Made by a program: the position numbers and the translations under genes. A stretch of DNA of 36,614 nucleotides. Source: a virus. This document shows positions 16,893 through 36,614 of the stretch, one piece after another. Below the pieces are notes generated by a model. It worked only from the letters and a program-made list of their open reading frames with translations. It did not search any database and was not told the DNA's origin. Within the stretch, counting starts at the first letter, position 1. Each line of letters begins with the position of its first letter. Location: positions 1 to 36,614 of IMG/VR virus record IMGVR_UViG_3300034018_000027; one strand, given 5' to 3'.

Positions 16893-17227
16893 GTCTCGTA
16901 GCAGAACAGGCGGCGTTCCTGCTGGATGTCGCCAAACTCGTTAACAAAGCGACTGAACTGGGCTTTGTCGTCACGGGTGGTGAACTTGCCCGTACCCCGG
17001 AACAGCAGGCCATCTATGTAAAGACTGGTCGCTCCAAGACGATGAACAGCATCCACCTCAAGCGGTGCGCCATTGACTTGAATTTCTTCCGCGATGGCAA
17101 GTTGACCTACGACATCCCGGCTCTTACGCCGGTTGGCGAATACTGGCAGAGCCTTAACCCCAAGAACCAATGGGGCGGGTTCTGGAAGTCATTTAAGGAT
17201 GTGCCGCACTTCGAGCGCAGGGTGTGA
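16889..17227 (+). CDS. M15-family L,D-endopeptidase (endolysin)
   Basis: A 112-aa protein with a GTG start overlapping the holin stop. It has the M15 metallopeptidase signature: S54-I-H56 ... A61-I-D63 (SxHxxxxAxD, with Cys60 in place of the usual Gly region) and W99 ... P106-H107-F108-E109, so zinc ligands would be His56, Asp63 and His107. Length and motif fit L-alanyl-D-glutamate endopeptidases or D,D-carboxypeptidase-type endolysins. There is no signal peptide, so release depends on a holin. The stop codon abuts the tRNA on the other strand. Confidence 0.85.
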   Translation: MSLVAEQAAFLLDVAKLVNKATELGFVVTGGELARTPEQQAIYVKTGRSKTMNSIHLKRCAIDLNFFRDGKLTYDIPALTPVGEYWQSLNPKNQWGGFWKSFKDVPHFERRV

Positions 17228-17297
17228 TGGCGAGGAAGGAATCGAACCTTCATTCACGGAGTCAAAGTCCGTTGTCCGACCGTTAGACGACTCGCCA
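17227..17297 (-). tRNA. tRNA-Gln(UUG)
   Basis: On the minus strand the acceptor arms are TGGCGAG (17297-17291) and CTCGCCA (17234-17228), seven pairs. The D arm is short (GTCT...GGAC). The anticodon arm is ACGGA-CTTTGAC-TCCGT with anticodon TTG. The variable loop is GAAT, and the T arm GAAGG-TTCGATT-CCTTC. A U1-A72 pair is usual for bacterial tRNA-Gln. No CCA is encoded (TCA follows). It lies at the end of the minus-strand operon and its 3' end touches the endopeptidase stop codon. It probably supplements host decoding of CAA/CAG. Confidence 0.9.
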
Positions 17298-21554: not shown

Positions 21555-21746
21555 ATGGACATTCAAGCCGCCCTAGCCGTTGCCGGTAGCAAAGCCGCCC
21601 TTGCCCGTAAACTGGGAGTTAGCCGTCCGGCTGTCTCGAGGTGGGTCAAGGCAGGGAAACTGCCTGCTATGCGGGTATGGCAATGGAAGGCGCTAGAAGC
21701 CGTCACCCCGCCGATTACAGCCGATTCTACGCCTACCCCCGGCTGA
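21555..21746 (+). CDS. Cro-like helix-turn-helix regulator
   Basis: A 63-aa protein starting MDIQAALAVAGSKAALARKLGVSRPAVSRWVKAGKLPAMRVWQW. The HTH is clear: SKAALARKLGVSRPAVSRWVKAG with recognition helix SRPAVSRWV, as in Cro/YdaS-like repressors. I choose ATG 21555 over an upstream Met at 21486 because that Met would extend through the operator. There is no obvious ribosome site, so the message may be leaderless or weakly translated. It lies divergent from the recombination operon and probably regulates it and itself. Confidence 0.8.
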   Translation: MDIQAALAVAGSKAALARKLGVSRPAVSRWVKAGKLPAMRVWQWKALEAVTPPITADSTPTPG

Positions 21747-21938: not shown

Positions 21939-22348
21939 CTTGACGCGGGCGGGGGGATGCCCTTACGCTTGAGATGCTGTTCTCGCGTGATGGTTAATTT
22001 ACATGGCTGTTCTAGTCGTGTCAAACACCCCACCACGCGACCCCTTGATACGGGCATCTGTCACCGGCGGGGTGGGTGCAATCCCCACATGATGTTCAAT
22101 CATCGACCAGACACCGGAAACCACGGTCTGGCGGGTCTAACAACCGCGTCCATACGGGCATAGGTTGGACTCTCTTGGCTCCCAATGTTCTTGGGGGTTA
22201 GGGGGGTCCTTTCCCGGTCCTCCGAGCATGGTTCTTAAGAAACAATCCTACAGAGTTAAATCTTAAATCCTAGAAACCCTAACTAAAGTTGTTGCATTAA
22301 CCTCCGTGAACAGTTACGCTTGTCCTGTCTAACCACAGAGAGGTTTTT
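21932..22348. other. 417-bp non-coding region with clustered hairpins and an AT-rich patch
   Basis: No convincing gene is present on either strand. On the plus strand there is a stem of 22026-22034 with 22066-22074 (8 of 9 pairs), and a competing hairpin GTGGG 22072-22076 with CCCAC 22084-22088. Three more hairpins follow: ATGAT 22089-22093 with ATCAT 22099-22103, CCAGAC 22107-22112 with GTCTGG 22126-22131, and CCCAA 22181-22185 with TTGGG 22191-22195. ATACGGGCAT occurs twice (22049-22058 and 22153-22162). TTCTTAAGAA is a perfect palindrome (22232-22241), followed by an AT-rich stretch with AATCCTA twice (22244-22250, 22266-22272). A weak promoter (TTGCAT 22292, TACGCT 22315) may precede the gene at 22349. 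It could be an origin, an untranslated leader or a small RNA. Confidence 0.6.
22332..22344 (+). promoter_or_regulatory. Leader/ribosome-site element ACCACAGAGAGGT, copy 1
   Basis: These 13 bases precede the ATG at 22349 and include the ribosome site AGAGAGG. The same 13 bases occur at 25232-25244 before another early gene. CCACAGGAG variants precede genes at 3863 and 33776. Confidence 0.6.
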
Positions 22349-23249: not shown

Positions 23250-23539
23250 CCGACAACATCACCCTGCCCCGCGCTGTGGCTTTTGAGATGCTAGAGGCGT
23301 CGATTTGCGGCGAACACATCGGCAATTTCTACGCCGCCCTCTACGCCGCGCTCGCGGCTCCGGAGCCGGAGCCAACCGTCAAGGAATCCTTGACTGTTGA
23401 CGCCAAGCGGGAGCCTGCGACGAGGGAGCAAATTGCGGAGGCGTACATAAAACCTGACATCGACGGACGATGGCGGGACTTTGAGTTAGGCTTCCGCGCC
23501 GCCGAGAAGTTCTACGGAATTACGAAGGAGGACACATGA
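23246..23539 (+). CDS. Hypothetical early protein, 97 aa
   Basis: I choose GTG at 23246, which has GGGAGG seven bases upstream and overlaps the preceding TGA. The product is MTDNITLPRAVAFEMLEASICGEHIGNFYAALYAALAAPEPEP, then REPATREQIAEAYIKPDIDGRWRDFELGFRAAEKFYGI. A Pro/Glu linker joins two helical parts. The second part resembles short helical phage proteins without assigned function. It overlaps the next gene by ATGA. Confidence 0.6.
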   Translation: MTDNITLPRAVAFEMLEASICGEHIGNFYAALYAALAAPEPEPTVKESLTVDAKREPATREQIAEAYIKPDIDGRWRDFELGFRAAEKFYGITKEDT

Positions 23540-23805
23540 CACGCGAGGACATCATCCGCATGGCGCGGGAGGCGGGATTCCCTGACTACGCTATGGGGCT
23601 AGCAAGCGAAGACGCTTGGCAGAAAACTGAACTCTTCGCCGCCCTTGTCGCAGCAGCCGAGCGAGAGGCGTGTGCCGAGGTTTGTGAAAAACAAATGAAG
23701 TCATACATGAGCAAGCAATACACAGTTGACCCGTTAGGCGGGTTTAGAGAAAGGTTTGCTGCCGAACAATGCGCCGCCGCCATCCGTGCGAGGGGGAGCA
23801 AGTGA
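23536..23805 (+). CDS. Conserved small phage protein, 89 aa
   Basis: An 89-aa protein starting MTREDIIRMAREAGFPDYAMGLASEDAWQKTELFAALVAAAEREACAEVCEKQMKS and ending FAAEQCAAAIRARGSK. I recognise the pattern MTREDIIRMAREAG...L.RFAALVAAAEREACA.VCE...AIRARG from many phages, where it is unassigned. Two short helices and conserved Cys/Glu residues are visible. It overlaps neighbours at both ends. Confidence 0.7.
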   Translation: MTREDIIRMAREAGFPDYAMGLASEDAWQKTELFAALVAAAEREACAEVCEKQMKSYMSKQYTVDPLGGFRERFAAEQCAAAIRARGSK

Positions 23806-23978
23806 CACGCACTTGTAAGCAATGCGGTCAGAAGTTCTTCGGCGCGTCGAGCATTCTCCAGCATCGCAGCGGTGCTTGCGGTGGCGAGGAATTACTGAAG
23901 TCTCGCGGCTGGGTTAAGACCAAGGCAGGATGGGTATCACCACAACGCGCAGCGCACGACAAACGCCGTGGAGTTTGA
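23802..23978 (+). CDS. Small zinc-finger-like protein, 58 aa
   Basis: The GTG start at 23802 overlaps the upstream stop (GTGA). It starts MTRTCKQCGQKFFGASSILQHRSGACGG, where Cys5, Cys8, His21 and Cys26 could form a C2HC zinc site like a shortened C2H2 finger. The rest is basic (GWVKTKAGWVSPQRAAHDKRRGV). It could bind DNA or RNA. No family name is known to me. Confidence 0.6.
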   Translation: MTRTCKQCGQKFFGASSILQHRSGACGGEELLKSRGWVKTKAGWVSPQRAAHDKRRGV

Positions 23979-24348
23979 GCGGCTGATGAAAAACCGGGAT
24001 GCGCCGCATATTGATTACGGCGCATTCCTCGGGTTGCTGCCGAACAACCCTAAAGCCTGCCCGTGCAATATCGACGGCATCATCGAGCGCAAGGGAAAGT
24101 TCCTCGTACTAGAATGGAAGCGCGAGGGTGAGGGGATGTCCGAAGGGCTGCGCCGCACCTTGCAGGCACTCGCTGCCACGCCAAACTTCCAAGTGTGGGT
24201 GGTGCGCGGGGATACGGACGAAGGGCTACGGATAGCGCGGTTTTTCTTCGTGCCGCCGCAGGGCAAAGCAATGCTGCTTGGGGAAGGCGTGGAGGAATTT
24301 GTACGCGCCTACAAACTCTGGTACGAATGGGCTGACGGGTCTTTCTGA
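23968..24348 (+). CDS. PD-(D/E)XK-type nuclease, first of a pair
   Basis: A 126-aa protein with GTG at 23968 (MEFERLMKNRD...); an ATG at 23989 is an alternative. Its core is CNIDGIIERKGKFLVLEWKREGEGMSEGLRRTLQAL, with Asp in NIDG followed by Glu and Lys in EWK, the PD-(D/E)XK arrangement. A conserved small phage protein of this pattern is common but its substrate is unknown. It overlaps the next gene by TGATG. A role in replication or packaging is inferred from position. Confidence 0.6.
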   Translation: MEFERLMKNRDAPHIDYGAFLGLLPNNPKACPCNIDGIIERKGKFLVLEWKREGEGMSEGLRRTLQALAATPNFQVWVVRGDTDEGLRIARFFFVPPQGKAMLLGEGVEEFVRAYKLWYEWADGSF

Positions 24349-24644
24349 TGCGCTACGCCGCACGCCGAGATGCTAACGATGCCGCCATCACCGCAGCCGT
24401 AAGAGCGGCGGGGTTTACGGTGTACGATTTGGGGCAGGCAGGGCAGGGAGTCCCCGATAAACTGGTCACCGCCCCCGGTTTTGCTGCCTTCCTTGAAATC
24501 AAGACCCCGACGGGCAAACTGCGAAGGGGTCAGGAACGCTTCCAGATGGCGTTTGAGCCGCTTGGGATGTGGTACCTAGCCCGTGACCCTGCCGAGACTG
24601 TTGCGTGGCTTCAGGCGCGGCTGACGACGACCCAGAAGCCTTGA
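24348..24644 (+). CDS. VRR-NUC-like PD-(D/E)XK nuclease
   Basis: A 98-aa protein starting MRYAARRDANDAAITAAVRAAGFTVYDLGQAGQGVPDKLVTAPGFAAFLEIKTPTGKLRRGQERFQMAF. The motif order is helix with Asp9-Asn10, GVPDKLV (Asp), FLEIKTP (Glu-x-Lys) and a following basic helix with Gln (RRGQERF), as in VRR-NUC or Holliday-junction-resolvase-like nucleases. It would cleave branched or junction DNA during replication. Its last bases overlap the convergent methyltransferase gene by 34 bases. Confidence 0.75.
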   Translation: MRYAARRDANDAAITAAVRAAGFTVYDLGQAGQGVPDKLVTAPGFAAFLEIKTPTGKLRRGQERFQMAFEPLGMWYLARDPAETVAWLQARLTTTQKP

Positions 24645-25135
24645 CCCATGAGTTGATGGTGCTGGAGGTGGTGGATGTGGAACCGCTCACAGAGCCGGGG
24701 AAGCCACCAACGGGCAGGCTCTTGGATGAGGTGGGCGTTGCGCCCGTCCGATAACACCTTGACCGCCGCCCCCGTGTGGACGCTGAAGAAGCCCAGCCGG
24801 GGCATGATACGGGCAAGGTCATCCAACACCGCGTCGAGCCGGTCAGGTTCAATGTGTTCCAGCACATCAATGCAGCAGACCATATCAGCCTCTACGGGAG
24901 GCCCGTACTCTGGGAAGGCTGGGTCATAGGGGTGGTAATCAAACTCCAGCCCTGCGCCCTGTAGGGCGGTTTGGAGGTGCTTCTTCCCGGCCCCATAGTC
25001 GGAAATTGACCGGATAGAGTTATCCACAGCCAATTTAGCGACAAGGGGCGCGAAGGCTAGTGAGGCCACCCCGTAATTAGGATTTGTGTGCAGTTCGACC
25101 TGTTGGGCGCGGTAGGCTTCGGAGATGGTGTCCAT
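24611..25135 (-). CDS. SAM-dependent methyltransferase (class I)
   Basis: A 174-aa protein starting MDTISEAYRAQQVELHTNPNYGVASLAF. The SAM-binding motif is IRSISDYGAGKKHLQTAL (motif I, about residues 40-57), with acidic MVCCIDVLEHIEPDRLDAVLDDLARIM further on (motifs III-IV region). It is shorter than most class I enzymes and lacks a recognisable target-recognition domain or NPPY-type motif, so I cannot say whether it modifies DNA, protein or a small molecule. It is a lone minus-strand gene convergent with the nuclease pair. Confidence 0.8.
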   Translation of the reverse strand: MDTISEAYRAQQVELHTNPNYGVASLAFAPLVAKLAVDNSIRSISDYGAGKKHLQTALQGAGLEFDYHPYDPAFPEYGPPVEADMVCCIDVLEHIEPDRLDAVLDDLARIMPRLGFFSVHTGAAVKVLSDGRNAHLIQEPARWWLPRLCERFHIHHLQHHQLMGQGFWVVVSRA

Positions 25136-25142
25136 ACCCCAG

Positions 25143-25156
25143 TTTACCCCGGTAAA
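25143..25156. promoter_or_regulatory. Palindrome TTTACC-CC-GGTAAA between divergent genes
   Basis: Arms TTTACC (25143-25148) and GGTAAA (25151-25156) are perfectly complementary with a CC spacer. The site is 8 bases upstream of the methyltransferase start and could be its operator. An A-run follows on the plus strand. Confidence 0.5.
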
Positions 25157-25175
25157 AAAAAGTTTGCTAAAGGTG

Positions 25176-25204
25176 TTGACAGGTAGGGCGGTATGCCCTA
25201 ATCT
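25176..25204 (+). promoter_or_regulatory. Promoter with an operator in its spacer
   Basis: A perfect -35 TTGACA (25176-25181) is followed after 17 bases by TAATCT (25199-25204), a partial -10. A perfect inverted repeat TAGGGC (25184-25189) / GCCCTA (25195-25200) with spacer GGTAT sits between the two boxes. A repressor bound there would block RNA polymerase. It drives the genes at 25252 onward. Confidence 0.65.
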
Positions 25205-25213
25205 ACTCCCATA

Positions 25214-25228
25214 CCAGCACGGTGCTGG
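25214..25228. promoter_or_regulatory. Inverted repeat CCAGCAC-G-GTGCTGG
   Basis: Seven perfectly complementary bases on each side of a single G. It begins near the expected transcription start of the promoter at 25176, so it may be a second operator or a 5' hairpin in the message (CCAGC...GCTGG closing a 5-base loop). Confidence 0.55.
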
Positions 25229-25231
25229 CTT

Positions 25232-25244
25232 ACCACAGAGAGGT
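25232..25244 (+). promoter_or_regulatory. Leader/ribosome-site element ACCACAGAGAGGT, copy 2
   Basis: Identical to 22332-22344 and likewise just before a start codon (ATG at 25252). It contains the ribosome site AGAGAGG. Confidence 0.6.
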
Positions 25245-25251
25245 AACTGAC

Positions 25252-25437
25252 ATGGACACGACCACCAACACCATCACCCTGACCATCCCCGCCGACGCTG
25301 CCCGTCTCGTTCGTTACGCGCTGCTGCGTCAGTACGGCTACATCTTCGAGAATCTTGGCAAGGAAGACGCATCGAAGAACAAGTCGCTTGAAGCACTCGA
25401 CGCGCTTATCGACCAGATTGAAGAACTCGCCCGTTAA
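25252..25437 (+). CDS. Small hypothetical early protein, 61 aa
   Basis: ATG at 25252 follows the AGAGAGGT leader; a Met at 25222 lies upstream of that ribosome site and is rejected. The product is MDTTTNTITLTIPADAARLVRYALLRQYGYIFENLGKEDASKN and ends LEALDALIDQIEELAR. A short beta strand precedes two helices. No family recognised. Confidence 0.6.
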   Translation: MDTTTNTITLTIPADAARLVRYALLRQYGYIFENLGKEDASKNKSLEALDALIDQIEELAR

Positions 25438-25467
25438 TCATCTTCACCACAAACAGGAGAAACAACC

Positions 25468-25620
25468 ATGTTTTACGCCATCTTCAACATGAACGACTTT
25501 AGCCGCGCTAGTGGCAAGTACCGCGACAAGTCAAACGCGCAGGCCGATTGTGAGCGAATGAATCTCTACGGCCGCATTTACCAAGTCGTCGAGGTAGACG
25601 CAACCGGGCATCCGTTCTAA
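25468..25620 (+). CDS. Small hypothetical early protein, 50 aa
   Basis: A 50-aa gene (MFYAIFNMNDFSRASGKYRDK, then ERMNLYGRIYQVVEVDATGHPF) with AGGAG six to ten bases upstream. It looks like a compact alpha/beta protein with a beta start and end. No family recognised. It lies in the early cluster after the promoter at 25176. Confidence 0.6.
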   Translation: MFYAIFNMNDFSRASGKYRDKSNAQADCERMNLYGRIYQVVEVDATGHPF

Positions 25621-25643
25621 CCACCCCGTCTCTTTCCACAGAA

Positions 25644-25811
25644 ATGATTGTCGCCGACTTTCGCGCTGCCCTCGCCCGTGCTGGACTTACACAGCGCGGT
25701 GCGGCTAGGGCGCTTGAAATTAACGAGCGTACTGTGCGCCGATACTGCGCCGGATACCCTGTGCCGCGTGTCGTTTGGTTAGCATTGGAGAGGCTTGCGC
25801 TCAAGCCGTGA
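25644..25811 (+). CDS. Small helix-turn-helix protein, 55 aa
   Basis: A 55-aa gene starting MIVADFRAALARAGLTQRGAARALEINERTVRRYCAGYPVPRVVW. AGLTQRGAARALEINERTVRRYCAG matches the XRE-type HTH (GLTQxxAARxLxxxxxTVRRxxxG). No strong ribosome site is visible; a CCACAGA sequence similar to the early leader precedes it. It is a second regulator candidate, possibly for the palindromes at 25143-25228. Confidence 0.7.
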   Translation: MIVADFRAALARAGLTQRGAARALEINERTVRRYCAGYPVPRVVWLALERLALKP

Positions 25812-25847
25812 GCGGTCTAGAGTCATGGTATCCTTCTGGGGGACGCT

Positions 25848-26216
25848 ATGGCTTCTCACGAAAAAACCGCTGCGCTTTTTGTCGGAACCATGTTCCACAG
25901 CGCGACCATCACGCACCTTCAGCACCTTGCAACAAAGTCCTACGCTCAACATAAGGCTTTGCAAAAATACTATGAGGCAATTCCCGGCTTTGTAGACGCT
26001 TATGCAGAGGCGTTTCAAGGGCGCTACGGCATCATCACGGGTTACGATGTCGAGTTCCACAAGAACAGCAATCCGAAGGCGTATGTGAAGTCGCTGCTGA
26101 CCTTCCTCGACGAAATTAAAGGCTCACTCCCGAAGGACAGCGACCTTGTTAACCTGTTTGACGCGGTTGTGGATGCCGTGACGAGCCTTAAGTACAAACT
26201 CGAAAACCTCGAATAA
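25848..26216 (+). CDS. DUF5856-like helical protein
   Basis: A 122-aa protein starting MASHEKTAALFVGTMFHSATITHLQHLATKSYAQHKALQKYYEAIPGFVDAYAEAFQGRYG. I recognise this as similar to small phage proteins (DUF5856 from memory) with a ferritin-like look: helices with TATITHLQHLATKSYAQHKALQKYY and a second long helix pair. Biochemistry is not known to me; some annotations call similar proteins DNA-starvation-like. It precedes the ADP-ribosyltransferase-like gene with a TAATG overlap. Confidence 0.65.
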   Translation: MASHEKTAALFVGTMFHSATITHLQHLATKSYAQHKALQKYYEAIPGFVDAYAEAFQGRYGIITGYDVEFHKNSNPKAYVKSLLTFLDEIKGSLPKDSDLVNLFDAVVDAVTSLKYKLENLE

Positions 26217-27472
26217 TGGCGAAGAAAGCGGAACCGTCACGGGTTGCTGCCGCGCTGCAATACCTCCAGCAGATGCGCGACCGTGCCGCTGACTTCGGTG
26301 GCGGGGTGGTGGAGAACCTCGCAGACCGCGCCAGAAGCGTCGGAGGACTCGCATACGAGGCTCTGGCGACCGACCCCAACATGGGGCGCATGACGACGGC
26401 AGAGTACGCCCAAGCCGCCGACCGCCCAACCCCTCGCTTAGACCAAGCCGCCCAAGACCTCGGTACCATCGGCAAGGCAATCGTTACGCAGCCGGTTCAG
26501 ACGGGCAAGGCTTTCGTGCAGGGCGAGGTTGAACGCGCACGGCAGGCAATGACCAGCCCCCGCGCTGCTGGTGAATACGCAGGGTCGATGGTTGACCCTA
26601 TGCGGATAGCAGCCGCGCTACGCAAAACCGCCCCTATCGCTGAACTAGATGTTTACCACGGCACCCCGCATCGGTTCCCCGCGACGGAGGCTAACCCGCT
26701 AGGGGAGTTTGACGCTAGCAAGATTGGCACGGGCGAGGGGGCGCAGGCTTTCGGGCATGGAATTTACCTTGCCGAAAAACCAAATGTTGCTCAAGACTAT
26801 CAATTTATGTTGAGCAAAATTGACCCAGAAACCGTTACTTATCAAGGCAAGCCTGTCCAAAAATGGTATGACATGGCGCAAGCCGAGCAAGACAGAGCGC
26901 ATAGGTTAGGCGACCGTACTGCGATTGACCGCGCTAACGCAAAATTGGCGTATTGGGAAAATGTCATGACTCGCCGCCATCCAGAAGATGTAAAGCGCGT
27001 GGCAAACGACCCGGATGACGGGTGGCCTACCTTTGCAAACTATGCAAACTCTTTGGAAATGGAAAAATTTGGCGGGTTGAAAGAAGCAGGCTCCCTTTAC
27101 AAAGCCGACCTCCCCGACGAGATGATAGACCGTATGCTCGATTGGGATAAGCCGTTGAGTGAGCAGCCGGAAAGTGTCCAGACAATTTTGAAAAATTTAG
27201 CCAAAAAAGACGCAGAAAAATACGGGGAAGGCGGTGGTCTTGATTACTACATGGGCGACCCAGATAGTTACGATGGTGAGAGCGTTTACCGTTATCTTGC
27301 TGAACAGCAAGACAGTCAAGTTAACACATCTGAATACTTTAAAAATCTAGGCATCCCCGGCATCAAGTATTTAGACGCAGGCAGTCGCGGCGGTGACTCT
27401 GCAACCGGAACGCGCAACTTCGTTGTGTTCCCCGGTGAGGAAAAGAAGGTACGCATATTGGAGCGTAAGTAA
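26216..27472 (+). CDS. ADP-ribosyltransferase-like (ART-PolyVal type) protein
   Basis: A 418-aa protein. Residues 1-135 are helical and Ala/Arg-rich, resembling phage virion linkers. A domain starts at 145 with VYHGTPHRFP (His148), then FDASKIGTGEGAQAFGHGIYLAEKPNVAQDY (Tyr184). It ends GIPGIKYLDAGSRGG and TRNFVVFPGEE in the last 60 residues, with a helical insert between. HG and GxGxYLAE are the motifs of ART-PolyVal domains in phage polyvalent proteins (H-Y-type mono-ADP-ribosyltransferases). It may modify host targets early or be carried in the particle. The catalytic third residue could not be assigned. Confidence 0.7.
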   Translation: MAKKAEPSRVAAALQYLQQMRDRAADFGGGVVENLADRARSVGGLAYEALATDPNMGRMTTAEYAQAADRPTPRLDQAAQDLGTIGKAIVTQPVQTGKAFVQGEVERARQAMTSPRAAGEYAGSMVDPMRIAAALRKTAPIAELDVYHGTPHRFPATEANPLGEFDASKIGTGEGAQAFGHGIYLAEKPNVAQDYQFMLSKIDPETVTYQGKPVQKWYDMAQAEQDRAHRLGDRTAIDRANAKLAYWENVMTRRHPEDVKRVANDPDDGWPTFANYANSLEMEKFGGLKEAGSLYKADLPDEMIDRMLDWDKPLSEQPESVQTILKNLAKKDAEKYGEGGGLDYYMGDPDSYDGESVYRYLAEQQDSQVNTSEYFKNLGIPGIKYLDAGSRGGDSATGTRNFVVFPGEEKKVRILERK

Positions 27473-33776: not shown

Positions 33777-34732
33777 TGGAACAGGCCCCACAGGCAGAGA
33801 CGCTCGACCGCAAGGAGTTGCTTGAACAGCAGTTTGAGCAGAGCGAGGAAACCCCTTCACAGGGGCGGGACGAGCAAGGCCGCTTTGCGGAGGTTCAAGA
33901 GCAACCCGCAGAAGCCGCCGAAGAACCCCTGTGGCGCAAGCCGCCTGCTTCGTGGAAGAAGGAATATCACGAACATTGGGCAAAGGCTGACCCCAAGATT
34001 CAAGAATACGCTTGGCAACGCGAAGAACAGATGAAGCGCGGCGTAGAGCCGTTGCTCTCCAAGGCGCAGTTTGCCGATGCGATGAATCAGGCGCTGGAGC
34101 CGTACCTGCCGACCATTCAGGGGCTGGGCTTGAAGCCAGAGCAGGCGGTTGCCGCTCTCGCGCAGGCCGATTACACGCTGCGTAATAGCCCCCCGGCGCA
34201 GAAGATGCAGTACCTAACGCAATTGGCTGCGTCATACGGCATCAACCTTAACCAAGTCATGCAGGGTGGTCAGCAGACCGCCCAACCCTCCGTTGACCCG
34301 ATGGTGTATCAGTTGCAAAACGAACTGAACACCGTCCGTGGCGAGGTCATGGGGTGGAAGCAACAGCAGGAGATGGCTGAAAACCAGACCCTGCTAAACG
34401 AAATCAACAGTTTCTCGATGACGGCTGAACACTTTGAGGAAGCGCGTCCGACGATGATTCAGTTGCTCCAATCTGGGGTGGCTGAAACGCTGGACGATGC
34501 TTACGAAAAGGCAATTAGGCTTGATTCGGATTTGTTTGACAAAGTGCAATCGGCCCGACAGGCAGAGGTTTCACAGCGTCAGGCAACAGAGAAGAACCGT
34601 GCGGTGAAAATTGCACGGGCTGCTGCGGTCAGCGTCAGAGGTTCCACACCCGGAACTAACACGGCTCCCAAGGCGCATAGTCGCCGCGCAATGTTGGAGG
34701 AAGCGTTTGAAGAATCCAACTCGCGGTTGTAA
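33776..34732 (+). CDS. Scaffolding protein, complete
   Basis: A 318-aa protein with CCACAGGAG before its start. The N-terminal 45 residues are acidic and Gln-rich, followed by WRKPPASWKKEYHEHWAKADPKIQEYAWQREEQMKRG (about residues 51-87), which is typical of phage scaffold-like proteins. Long charged helices follow, then a basic C-terminus. Just before the capsid gene, it would guide procapsid assembly and leave or be removed on maturation. The last 145 residues repeat at the window start (2-439). Confidence 0.8.
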   Translation: MEQAPQAETLDRKELLEQQFEQSEETPSQGRDEQGRFAEVQEQPAEAAEEPLWRKPPASWKKEYHEHWAKADPKIQEYAWQREEQMKRGVEPLLSKAQFADAMNQALEPYLPTIQGLGLKPEQAVAALAQADYTLRNSPPAQKMQYLTQLAASYGINLNQVMQGGQQTAQPSVDPMVYQLQNELNTVRGEVMGWKQQQEMAENQTLLNEINSFSMTAEHFEEARPTMIQLLQSGVAETLDDAYEKAIRLDSDLFDKVQSARQAEVSQRQATEKNRAVKIARAAAVSVRGSTPGTNTAPKAHSRRAMLEEAFEESNSRL

Positions 34733-34755
34733 CCAACTGATATAGGAGCATTGAA

Positions 34756-36018
34756 ATGGCTTACGCCAATTCCAGTATCAGCGATATCATCGCCACAAAT
34801 ATCCAATCCCGTAGCGGTGAACTCGCGGACAATGTCACGAACAACAATGCGTTGCTTCGTCGTTTGAAAGAGCGTGGGAATGTGAAAACATTCTCGGGTG
34901 GTAATGTGATTTTGCAAGAAATCATGTACAACGATGCGACCACGAACAACACCAATTCGTACTCCGGGTACGAGGTGTTGAATGTCGGTCAAAACTCGCC
35001 CATCTCGGCGGCGCAGTTCAGCATCACGCAGTATGCGTCTGCTGTGTCCATCTCGGGTCTGGAGATGATTCAGAACTCGGGTAAGGAAGCCATCATCGAC
35101 CTGCTTGACGGTCGTATGGAGGTTGCCGAGGCGCAACTGGCGAACCGCATCAGCGGTGACCTGTACGGTGACGGAACCGGCAACGCGGGTAAGAACCTCA
35201 CGGGTCTTGCTGCTGCTGTGCCGGATAGCCCGTCCACCGGCACTTATGGCGGCATCAACCGTCAGGTGTGGTCGTTCTGGCGTTCGGTGGCCTTCTCGGC
35301 TACGGGCGACGGCACGGGCGCTGTCACCAGCAGCAACATCCAAGGCTACATGGATTCGGTTGCGGTGCAGTTGATTCGTGGTACGGACAAGCCCGACCTC
35401 ATCGTTGCGGACTCCAACTACTACAAGTTCTACCTCCAGAGCCTGCAAGCCATCCAGCGTATTACCGACAGCGGTAGTGGCACGGCTGGCGCTGGCTTCG
35501 CCTCGCTGAAGTATTTCGGCGCTGGCATGGCCTCGGATGTGGTGCTTGATGGTGGTATTGGTTCGTCGTCGTATAACGGCGGCGTGGGCAATGCCAACCA
35601 CATGTGGTTCCTCAACACCAAGTACCTGATGTTCCGCCCCCACAAGGACAGAAACTTTGTCCCGATTGGCGGCGACCGTCAGGCTGTCAACCAAGACGCT
35701 AAACCTACGATTCACTAATGGCGTCTATAAACCCTCTCTGATTGACTTGGAAACCCGGAAGCGGGCAACAGGGGCCAAGCGAAAGCAGGCTGAACGACTA
35801 AGTGAGAGGGGGCGAACGAAAAAGGTTCGCCATGCGATAGTCTGAACTGCGGTATAACCAAAGAAGCCGCAGAGGGTGACCCGAAGAGGTTGCCCCGCCA
35901 TCCGAAAGGGTGGTCAGTAGCCGAAAGGCGAAGTAACAGAATGATTGTGAAACTGATTGGCTGGGCGGGTAACCTTACCTCGTCCGGTCCGCAGTTCTGC
36001 GGCGTGTTGATTAACTGA
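34756..36018 (+). CDS. Major capsid protein, second copy (join 34756..35700, 35944..36018)
   Basis: The same gene as at 463-1725 with the intron in place; no base difference was found. It is not an extra capsid gene but the other side of the circular overlap. In the circle it directly follows scaffold at 34732 with AGGAG before ATG. Confidence 0.92.
35701..35943 (+). ncRNA. Group I intron, second copy
   Basis: Identical to 1408-1650. The guide sequence lies at 35720-35726, P7 at 35796-35800 and 35838-35842, and the final G at 35943. Confidence 0.92.
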
Positions 36019-36032
36019 TAGGGGATACGAAA

Positions 36033-36515
36033 ATGACTGTTATTGTTAACGGGTTTGCGTACCCTGCTCTCGGTAATACCGACTCGACCCCTGCCATTAA
36101 TCCCGGCACGGTCGTGACGCTCGATGATGGTGGTTTGGCGGTGTATGTGCAGGCGGCTTCGGCTATCTCGCAGTACAACGCTGTTTGCATCCCTGCGACC
36201 AATGTCGTAACCAACGCGACGACGGCGCGTGTTGCTGATACCAAGCGTATCGGCTTCGCGCAGGTGTCGATTGCGTCCGGCTACTACGGCTGGGTGCAGT
36301 TGGGCGGCAAGGTGCGGGTGAATGTGTCGGCTTCCTGCCTCCCGGCGGTTGCCCTCTACACCACCAGCACCGAAGGCCGGTTGGATGATGCCACCGTGTC
36401 GGGCGCTCTGGTCGCTGGCGTGGTCACGGAAGTGACCGCCTCGGCTACTTCGGCTATGACTGCGGTTGCAGCGTTCACCATGGTTATCCCGGTTCCGTCT
36501 AACGCGACCCCGTAA
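36033..36515 (+). CDS. Capsid decoration protein-like, second copy
   Basis: The same gene as at 1740-2222, present twice only because of the circular overlap. Confidence 0.7.
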   Translation: MTVIVNGFAYPALGNTDSTPAINPGTVVTLDDGGLAVYVQAASAISQYNAVCIPATNVVTNATTARVADTKRIGFAQVSIASGYYGWVQLGGKVRVNVSASCLPAVALYTTSTEGRLDDATVSGALVAGVVTEVTASATSAMTAVAAFTMVIPVPSNATP

Positions 36516-36517
36516 CC

Positions 36518-36614
36518 ATGCAAAAACTGGAACTCACGGTGCAGGCGGCTGGCAAACCGGAGGAACTCTGTTCCAACATTCGCTCGTCGCTTGCCCGTGG
36601 GTTGCCAGAGTTGG
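36518..36614 (+). CDS. DUF115-like protein, N-terminal part (cut by window edge)
   Basis: The first 32 codons of the gene at 2225-2998. It carries the one base that differs between the repeat copies (36568, Leu17 codon CTC instead of CTT). Confidence 0.6.
   Translation, partial: MQKLELTVQAAGKPEELCSNIRSSLARGLPEL

Follow-up and report, generated by a model that had tools for sequence, protein, structure and literature searches.

Organisation of the locus

The stretch of DNA analysed here, referred to below as the window, is a viral contig of 36,614 nucleotides (IMG/VR record IMGVR_UViG_3300034018_000027). Its two ends, 2-2321 and 34295-36614, carry a repeated sequence of 2,320 bases (99.96% identity), which gives the record the appearance of a genome of about 34.3 kb assembled with terminal redundancy. 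The phage carries a tRNA-Gln (TTG) gene at 17226-17297 on the minus strand, and a comparison of positions 23500-26500 with named phages found no DNA similarity at E 1e-5. Our subject is the intergenic region between a methyltransferase-like gene and a divergent set of small genes, with the following features:

24611-25135, minus strand: methyltransferase-like gene, divergent, one boundary of the module (family searches, relatives)
25143-25156, no strand assigned: P1, TTTACC-CC-GGTAAA, a palindrome that is not conserved, its left half being kept better (leader alignment)
25176-25181, plus strand: -35 element, TTGACA (direct reading; TTGAC invariant in nine of nine aligned leaders)
25184-25200, plus strand: P2, predicted operator TAGGGC-GGTAT-GCCCTA, filling the promoter spacer (direct reading and leader alignment)
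25199-25204, plus strand: -10 element, TAATCT, overlapping the end of P2 (direct reading; TAATCT is also found in the DMS3 acr promoter)
25211-25213, plus strand: predicted transcription start, placed from the -10 element
25214-25228, plus strand: P3, CCAGCACGGTGCTGG (CCAGCAC-G-GTGCTGG), predicted mRNA hairpin near the 5' end (pairing in leaders)
25230-25246, plus strand: second predicted leader hairpin, UUACC-ACAGAGA-GGUAA, containing the Shine-Dalgarno sequence (predicted fold, recurrence in the group)
25252-25437, plus strand: first gene of the operon, 61 aa, candidate anti-defence gene (no known family in family searches)
25468-25620, plus strand: second gene, 50 aa, candidate anti-defence gene (no known family in family searches)
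25644-25811, plus strand: 55-aa helix-turn-helix (HTH) protein, candidate KorC/Aca1-like autorepressor (profile, structure, pairwise comparison)
25848-26216, plus strand: DUF5856 / phrog_858 gene, the other boundary of the module (family searches, relatives)

The three perfect palindromes that a sequence-only reading of this DNA had described are all present at the positions it gave. Counting inverted repeats with arms of at least 6 and a gap of 0-8 in the 116 bases from 25136 to 25251, we observed three, against a mean of 0.28 in 3,000 dinucleotide shuffles (P(3 or more) = 0.0033), and along the whole contig 7 of 1,259 segments of this length hold at least three. Searched through the whole window, P2 had no near copy with up to two mismatches besides itself (0.99 expected), P3 had one other, with three mismatches (two in all, 2.9 expected), and P1 had two others, with two mismatches (three in all, 0.74 expected). 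The palindromes are not equivalent, as their conservation differs among nine aligned leaders.

The promoter and its predicted operator

The elements TTGACA and TAATCT are separated by a spacer of 17 bases, and P2 is placed in this spacer, with its right arm reaching into the -10 element; the middle palindrome thus lies between -35 and -10, as had been proposed. A sigma-70 promoter scan of 24400-26400 listed no promoter, which we ascribe to TAATCT fitting just three of the six consensus bases. The arms of P2 are exact in all nine aligned leaders and enclose three different centres, and such constant arms with variable centres fit an operator that is read as two half-sites. Together with the comparisons below, these sequence features indicate that the 55-aa HTH protein encoded at 25644-25811 very probably has its operator in P2.

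The 55-aa protein resembles Aca1 and KorC

A profile of the HTH protein searched against solved structures gave Aca1 as the best match (E 5e-8), as did a search with the single sequence (E 0.003). In pairwise alignments the protein shows 41% identity with DMS3 Aca1 over 56 aa, and over 53 aa its identity with the KorC of an IncP plasmid is 42%; the motif Arg-Thr-x-Arg-Arg is invariant in a 14-row alignment. The predicted model has a mean pLDDT of 89. Foldseek placed Aca1 chains at ranks 1-6 (TM 0.86-0.89, E 5e-3 to 8e-3) with no match at E 0.001 or below, and structural re-alignment gave Aca10, Aca1 and Aca2 at Z 8.2-9.2. The fold alone is not decisive, because 2ox6 and NE0471 reach equally high scores without being known to regulate anti-CRISPRs.

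Among family models, phrog_3865, that of DMS3 Aca1, matched the protein at E 0.0012, with phrog_664 and phrog_2328 scoring better, and NCBIfam gave nothing above its cut-off. As tblastn of the HTH protein against phage and plasmid collections returned nothing at E 0.01, profile, structure and pairwise comparisons are what connect it to Aca1 and KorC. KorC itself has as its best PDB match the repressor part of AcrIF24 (E 9e-4). Similarity to Aca1 is thus seen in both sequence and fold, and the candidacy of the 55-aa protein as regulator, suggested by the sequence-only reading, has been strengthened: it is the best candidate we have, sharing its occurrence with P2 and resembling both Aca1 and KorC.

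Comparison with known regulatory systems

The same P2-type switch is present in plasmids and in other phages. In the IncP-1 KorC regulon, the klcA and kleA promoters resemble that of the window in having TAGGGC-N5-GCCCTA reaching into the -10 element, a GC-rich leader dyad and a similar HTH protein, so that both marks of the KorC family, sequence similarity and this promoter dyad, are found at our locus. Our literature search did not find the letters of the KorC operator, and they were taken instead from the DNA of plasmid pBS228, where the kleA promoter, beside korC, has TAGGGCATAATGCCCTA reaching into the -10 element; the arms of the P2 dyad thus recur in the kleA promoter of an IncP plasmid. 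The korC gene of pBS228 is placed upstream of kleA, whereas the HTH gene of the window is the last of its own operon. KorC is described as a global regulator in the accessible part of PMC7314908; several operators per element, a KorC trait, were not seen here, the window and each of three module-bearing sister contigs (possibly fragments) having one site.

The acrIE3-aca1 locus of phage DMS3 is alike in other respects. It shares with the window a TTGNNN-17-TAATCT promoter whose spacer holds a TAGGNN-N5-NNCCTA dyad and, after it, a small gene (acr in DMS3) and then an Aca1-type HTH gene. In DMS3 DNA we read the dyad of the acr promoter as TAGGCA-CAATG-TGCCTA, reaching into TAATCT; letters of an Aca1-binding probe are quoted in the excerpted text of PMC9410881. 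P2 does not match the Aca1 operator TAGGCA-N5-TGCCTA, having the same frame with the half-site TAGGGC in place of TAGGCA, and the window has one dyad whereas DMS3 has two. The leaders of DMS3 and of the sister contig L166 both have CATGCCAGC, while that of the window has CATACCAGC. The alignment of the window's 55-aa HTH protein with DMS3 Aca1, of 73 aa, begins at residue 15 of the latter, and the window's own small genes, unlike the acr gene of DMS3, are not recognised Acrs.

The acrIF23-acrIF24 operon likewise has a 17-bp dyad in the promoter spacer, reported as TAGCTCGATTCGAGCTA between TTGCAT and TATAGT in the portion of PMC9638941 available. Its half-site letters differ from ours, and in AcrIF24 the repressor (the body domain) is fused to the anti-CRISPR, unlike in the window. 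A 6-5-6 frame of 17 bp, TAGnnn-N5-nnnCTA, is common to P2 and to the kleA, DMS3 acr (Aca1) and AcrIF24 operators. Aca2 and Aca10 belong to the same fold class as the window's HTH protein, at 22-24% identity in structural alignment. Aca2 binds RNA as well, although our literature search listed no paper on this. Aca2 and Aca10 bind inverted repeats in acr promoters, with operator sequences that differ from P2 (PMC9410881, in part). In the available text of PMC9410906, each core promoter in ten Aca promoter sets contains an inverted repeat, and the Acas tested repress. P2 too is an inverted repeat inside a core promoter, and the HTH gene lies downstream of small genes in the same operon, two features of acr-aca operons. 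Taken as a whole, this sequence evidence suggests that a small phage operon, of the type that holds anti-immunity genes, is most likely switched off at P2.

The operator beyond the phage group

Outside the phage group we scanned for the -35 element plus the operator, TTGAC-N3-TAGGGC-N5-GCCCTA. The pattern was found in 111 viral stretches, and a control palindrome with the same base composition in 19. In genomes it was found in 33 stretches, with about 30 expected on a naive estimate of our own that takes equal base frequencies, so the genome count is no evidence in itself and only the placement of HTH genes counts there. T occupies the last -10 position at 75 of 134 sites in viral DNA and at 28 of 35 in genomes.

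Our examination took in all of these loci, 111 viral and 33 from genomes, which reduce to 148 distinct sites. Within 4 kb of each site, a KorC/Aca1-type HTH gene was called at E 1e-4 or better, with a profile built from the window group, two distant relatives, KorC and an Aca1 segment. Such a gene lies downstream on the same strand at all 10 window-group sites, at 44 of the 103 other viral ones and at 14 of the 35 in genomes. In the same order, the counts for a gene upstream on that strand are 0, 5 and 4, and those for the other strand are 0, 1 and 0 downstream and 0, 3 and 1 upstream. No gene of this type lies within 4 kb in any orientation at 51 of the 103 other viral and 16 of the 35 genome sites, and no window-group site is of this kind. 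Counted by locus, 41 of 81 other viral loci have the HTH gene downstream on the same strand, against five upstream on that strand (one and three, respectively, on the other strand), and 33 of 81 have no family HTH within 4 kb in any orientation. The 19 control loci gave no HTH match, or one weak match with an iterated profile. When 15 records lacking a nearby HTH gene were searched whole, eight had a match somewhere (one of them weak) and seven had none.

Several viral contigs (L208/L213, L217/L255, L233 and L270) carry five to seven P2-type promoters each, and these possibly represent regulons rather than single operons.

Genes between the operator and the HTH gene

Family searches with the 61-aa and 50-aa proteins gave no informative match and hence no recognised acr gene among the small genes of the window's operon, and PADLOC reported nothing for five window proteins. 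In two sister contigs (L166 and L167) the ORF just before the HTH gene encodes a 131-aa homologue of AcrIE3. Its first 51 residues match the PHROG of a type I-E anti-CRISPR (E 7.7e-6) and, in the PDB, AcrIE3 itself (E 1.6e-5); the ORF is 40% identical to DMS3 AcrIE3 over 52 aa, with an alignment score of 94 against a maximum of 53 in 2,000 shuffles. The first 60 residues gave weak matches to 39 records of the phage collection, all Pseudomonas phages; among the best 20 of these 39, at E 0.01-0.03, five are annotated as type I-E anti-CRISPRs. The homologue was found in these two contigs only, both with the same promoter and ORF. Since it stands before the HTH gene as acrIE3 stands before the Aca1 gene in DMS3, the order, acr then aca, is the same, with like promoters. 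Beyond its AcrIE3-like N-terminal part the 131-aa ORF has a C-terminal extension of about 80 residues of unknown nature, and it is perhaps a two-domain protein.

At 63 sites elsewhere, 101 ORFs were picked by script from the slot between operator and HTH gene. The recurring named families among them are antirestriction proteins (5/101, all five from the genome-contig set), RadC (2/101) and, in NCBIfam, TrbA-like regulators (3/101); single matches include ribosome modulation factor, and most of the other PHROG matches carry no function.

These genes bear on what the switch controls. The HTH protein could repress P2 as in IncP plasmids, in a KorC-like maintenance switch whose small genes would act in establishment, in copy-number control or in taking over the host, and not against defence systems. 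The likeness of the HTH protein to KorC and the identity of the P2 arms with those of the kleA promoter dyad suit such a function, as does the fact that few slot ORFs elsewhere fit a named family, the window's own genes having none. Against it, the families that do recur in the slot are the antirestriction, RadC and TrbA-like ones, AcrIE3 occupies the slot within the window group, and the KorC target klcA is, in RP4, an antirestriction gene (PMC7314908, in the part available). We regard a maintenance switch as a serious but doubtful contender. An anti-defence role for the 61-aa and 50-aa genes of the window itself is guessed from where they lie, and we put its odds near even.

P1, P3 and the mRNA leader

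P1 is exact in only three of the nine aligned leaders, two more pairing only with a base inserted in the right arm, and we rejected it as an operator for the former reason. Its better-conserved left half may belong to the start region of the methyltransferase gene.

P3 retains at least six of its seven pairs in all nine leaders; 59 of 62 alignment cells are paired, two of the seven pairs show changes on both sides, and the centre base is missing in the sister L166. The covariation score was reached by 12 of 500 shuffles and the number of pairs with double changes by 42 of 500; for further pair types, all 500 shuffles reached the observed value. Folding of four single leaders gave z of -0.65 to -1.82, without significance, and in the lowest-energy fold of L166 only part of the P3 stem is paired. 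P3 is probably an mRNA hairpin rather than a DNA operator, with modest support, as the sequences are nine related ones and 12 of 500 shuffles reach the score.

Alternatively, P3 might be a further operator at the DNA level, bound by the HTH protein or by another. This view draws on P3 being a perfect 15-bp dyad close to the start site, on the weakness of that covariation, on the second inverted repeat of several acr promoters (PMC9410906, in part), and on the leader dyads of other P2-type promoters, which often repeat GGGC/GCCC. Yet the half-sites of P3 are unlike those of P2, whereas the second acr repeat is said to resemble the first in the available text of the same source, and the loss of the centre base in L166 also speaks against an operator. 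We consider this alternative unlikely. Far less probable still are three regulators on three separate DNA operators: three distinct palindromes are more than chance would give, but P1 is exact in only three of nine leaders, and P3 varies in loop length and in its pairs more in the manner of an RNA stem. The sequence-only reading had allowed for up to three regulators, which does not hold, as only P2 behaves as a conserved operator; its other option, one regulator plus an RNA hairpin, comes near to what the evidence favours, with the regulator's part falling to P2 and the HTH protein and the hairpin's, at modest support, to P3.

Downstream of P3, the Shine-Dalgarno sequence AGAGAGG (25237-25243) precedes the ATG at 25252 and, in the predicted leader fold, lies within the second stem, whose loop is ACAGAGA. 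The sequence CCACAGANAGG was found in 41 distinct contexts among the loci fetched for the phage group, all with an ATG at most 20 bases downstream. It occurs in the window at 22333-22343 and 25233-25243, stands ahead of the start codons of many genes of the group and is often inside a short stem whose flanking bases covary; this stem is possibly a translation-control hairpin. Rfam gave no match to the leader, its single sub-threshold hit being a microRNA on the minus strand at 25650-25727.

Leader hairpins occur at 9 of 10 sites in the window group (0.6 in shuffles) and at 27 of 102 other viral sites, several from one contig (5.8 in shuffles, sd 2.3); in the genome set, 5 of 35 sites were not above chance (2.2 in shuffles, sd 1.4). 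In other phages, P2-type promoters have a recurring leader dyad of the type GGGCAATNNTGCCC about 17 bases past the operator and echoing its half-sites.

The module in related phages

Relatives were drawn from the best 80 of 550 loci of the methyltransferase search and the best 80 of 248 loci of the DUF5856 search, and 137 loci with both boundary genes (several per contig) gave 61 distinct pairs. P2 and the HTH gene are both present in 8 of these 61 pairs and both absent from 53, with no discordant pair, although the 8 and the 53 are not phylogenetically independent. The interval between the boundary genes is 563-1184 nt with the module and 53-58 or 398 nt without it. In many relatives the boundary genes are nearly adjacent, and others hold between them a unit that starts at P2 and ends at the HTH gene.

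A scan for the promoter-operator pattern found 17 contigs with one match each, three of them (L171-L173) of other phage types. Two of these, L172 and L173, are of a different phage type and have the same operator before ORFs of 67 and 75 aa; the family HTH was not found in the stretch available. A scan for the HTH gene found 18 loci, 16 of them at 83% tblastn identity or higher. Fifteen of the 16 have P2 315-857 bases upstream, and in the remaining case the contig is too short upstream to show whether P2 is there; L188 and L189, more distant relatives, have no P2 in the 2 kb upstream. On contig 3300031951_010679 (L187, L297), P2, P3 and the HTH gene are retained next to a different upstream gene. 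In the phage group, the promoter and the HTH gene are constant while the genes between P2 and the HTH gene vary.

When 12 related contigs, which may be fragments, were searched whole, P2 and the HTH gene were found in three and neither in nine. The Cro-like gene (21555-21746, so called by the sequence-only reading and by us) is in 10 of the 12, including eight of the nine that show neither P2 nor HTH, and it does not travel with P2, as those eight contigs attest. Binding of P2 by the Cro-like protein, which is another small HTH-type protein of the window, is disfavoured by this distribution and seems to us highly improbable. The same counts uphold the earlier suggestion that this is a second switch, independent of the Cro-like one.

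Discussion

We conclude from sequence comparisons that the region is, with a probability of about 0.8, the promoter-operator of an autorepressed operon of the acr-aca type, with the HTH protein binding P2. The estimate is tempered by the weak Foldseek E-values and by the lack of a nearby HTH gene at half of the sites outside the group. The sequence-only reading lacked the acr-aca layout, which we now read from the gene order, the operator and the likeness to Aca1. The layout itself is already known, and the window's operon adds to it.

A rough course of events can be proposed, in which the binding at P2, the dimer, the repression, the timing, what the hairpins do and what part the window's two small genes play are all inferred. 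The strong promoter TTGACA-17-TAATCT would fire when phage DNA enters a repressor-free cell, and would drive the 61-aa and 50-aa genes and then the 55-aa HTH protein. This KorC/Aca1-type repressor, presumably a dimer, would bind the 17-bp dyad P2 in the spacer, exclude RNA polymerase and so shut the operon off. In the mRNA leader, P3 and the next stem would fold into hairpins, of which P3 most likely shields the 5' end. The two small genes are best guessed to encode anti-defence proteins (anti-CRISPR or similar).

A broader proposal is more tentative, and we rate it somewhat short of even. KorC, Aca1, the repressor domain of AcrIF24 and many unnamed HTH proteins of phages and prophages may form one repressor family that reads TAGnnn-N5-nnnCTA in the promoter spacer. 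The operator, which can be looked for in raw DNA, would then mark anti-defence operons in mobile elements that lack annotation. The 61-aa and 50-aa proteins would represent anti-defence families that are new, with the recurring leader hairpin adding post-transcriptional control. Our literature search, with most subscription journals outside it, did not find a link between the KorC and Aca1 operators in print, nor a paper with both KorC and anti-CRISPR; anti-CRISPR, KlcA and Aca1 do appear together in one paper on the clustering of anti-defence genes (PMC7648647).

If these readings are true, the operon in the window is of the anti-CRISPR type and encodes two new candidate anti-defence proteins, neither of them recognised by the family searches that we ran. 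The 17-bp operator with its -35 element would serve as a DNA bait: it drew 111 viral loci, in about half of which a KorC/Aca1-like gene follows downstream, and the operons recovered consist mostly of unnamed small ORFs. It would also tie the KorC regulation of plasmids to the regulation of anti-CRISPRs in phages.
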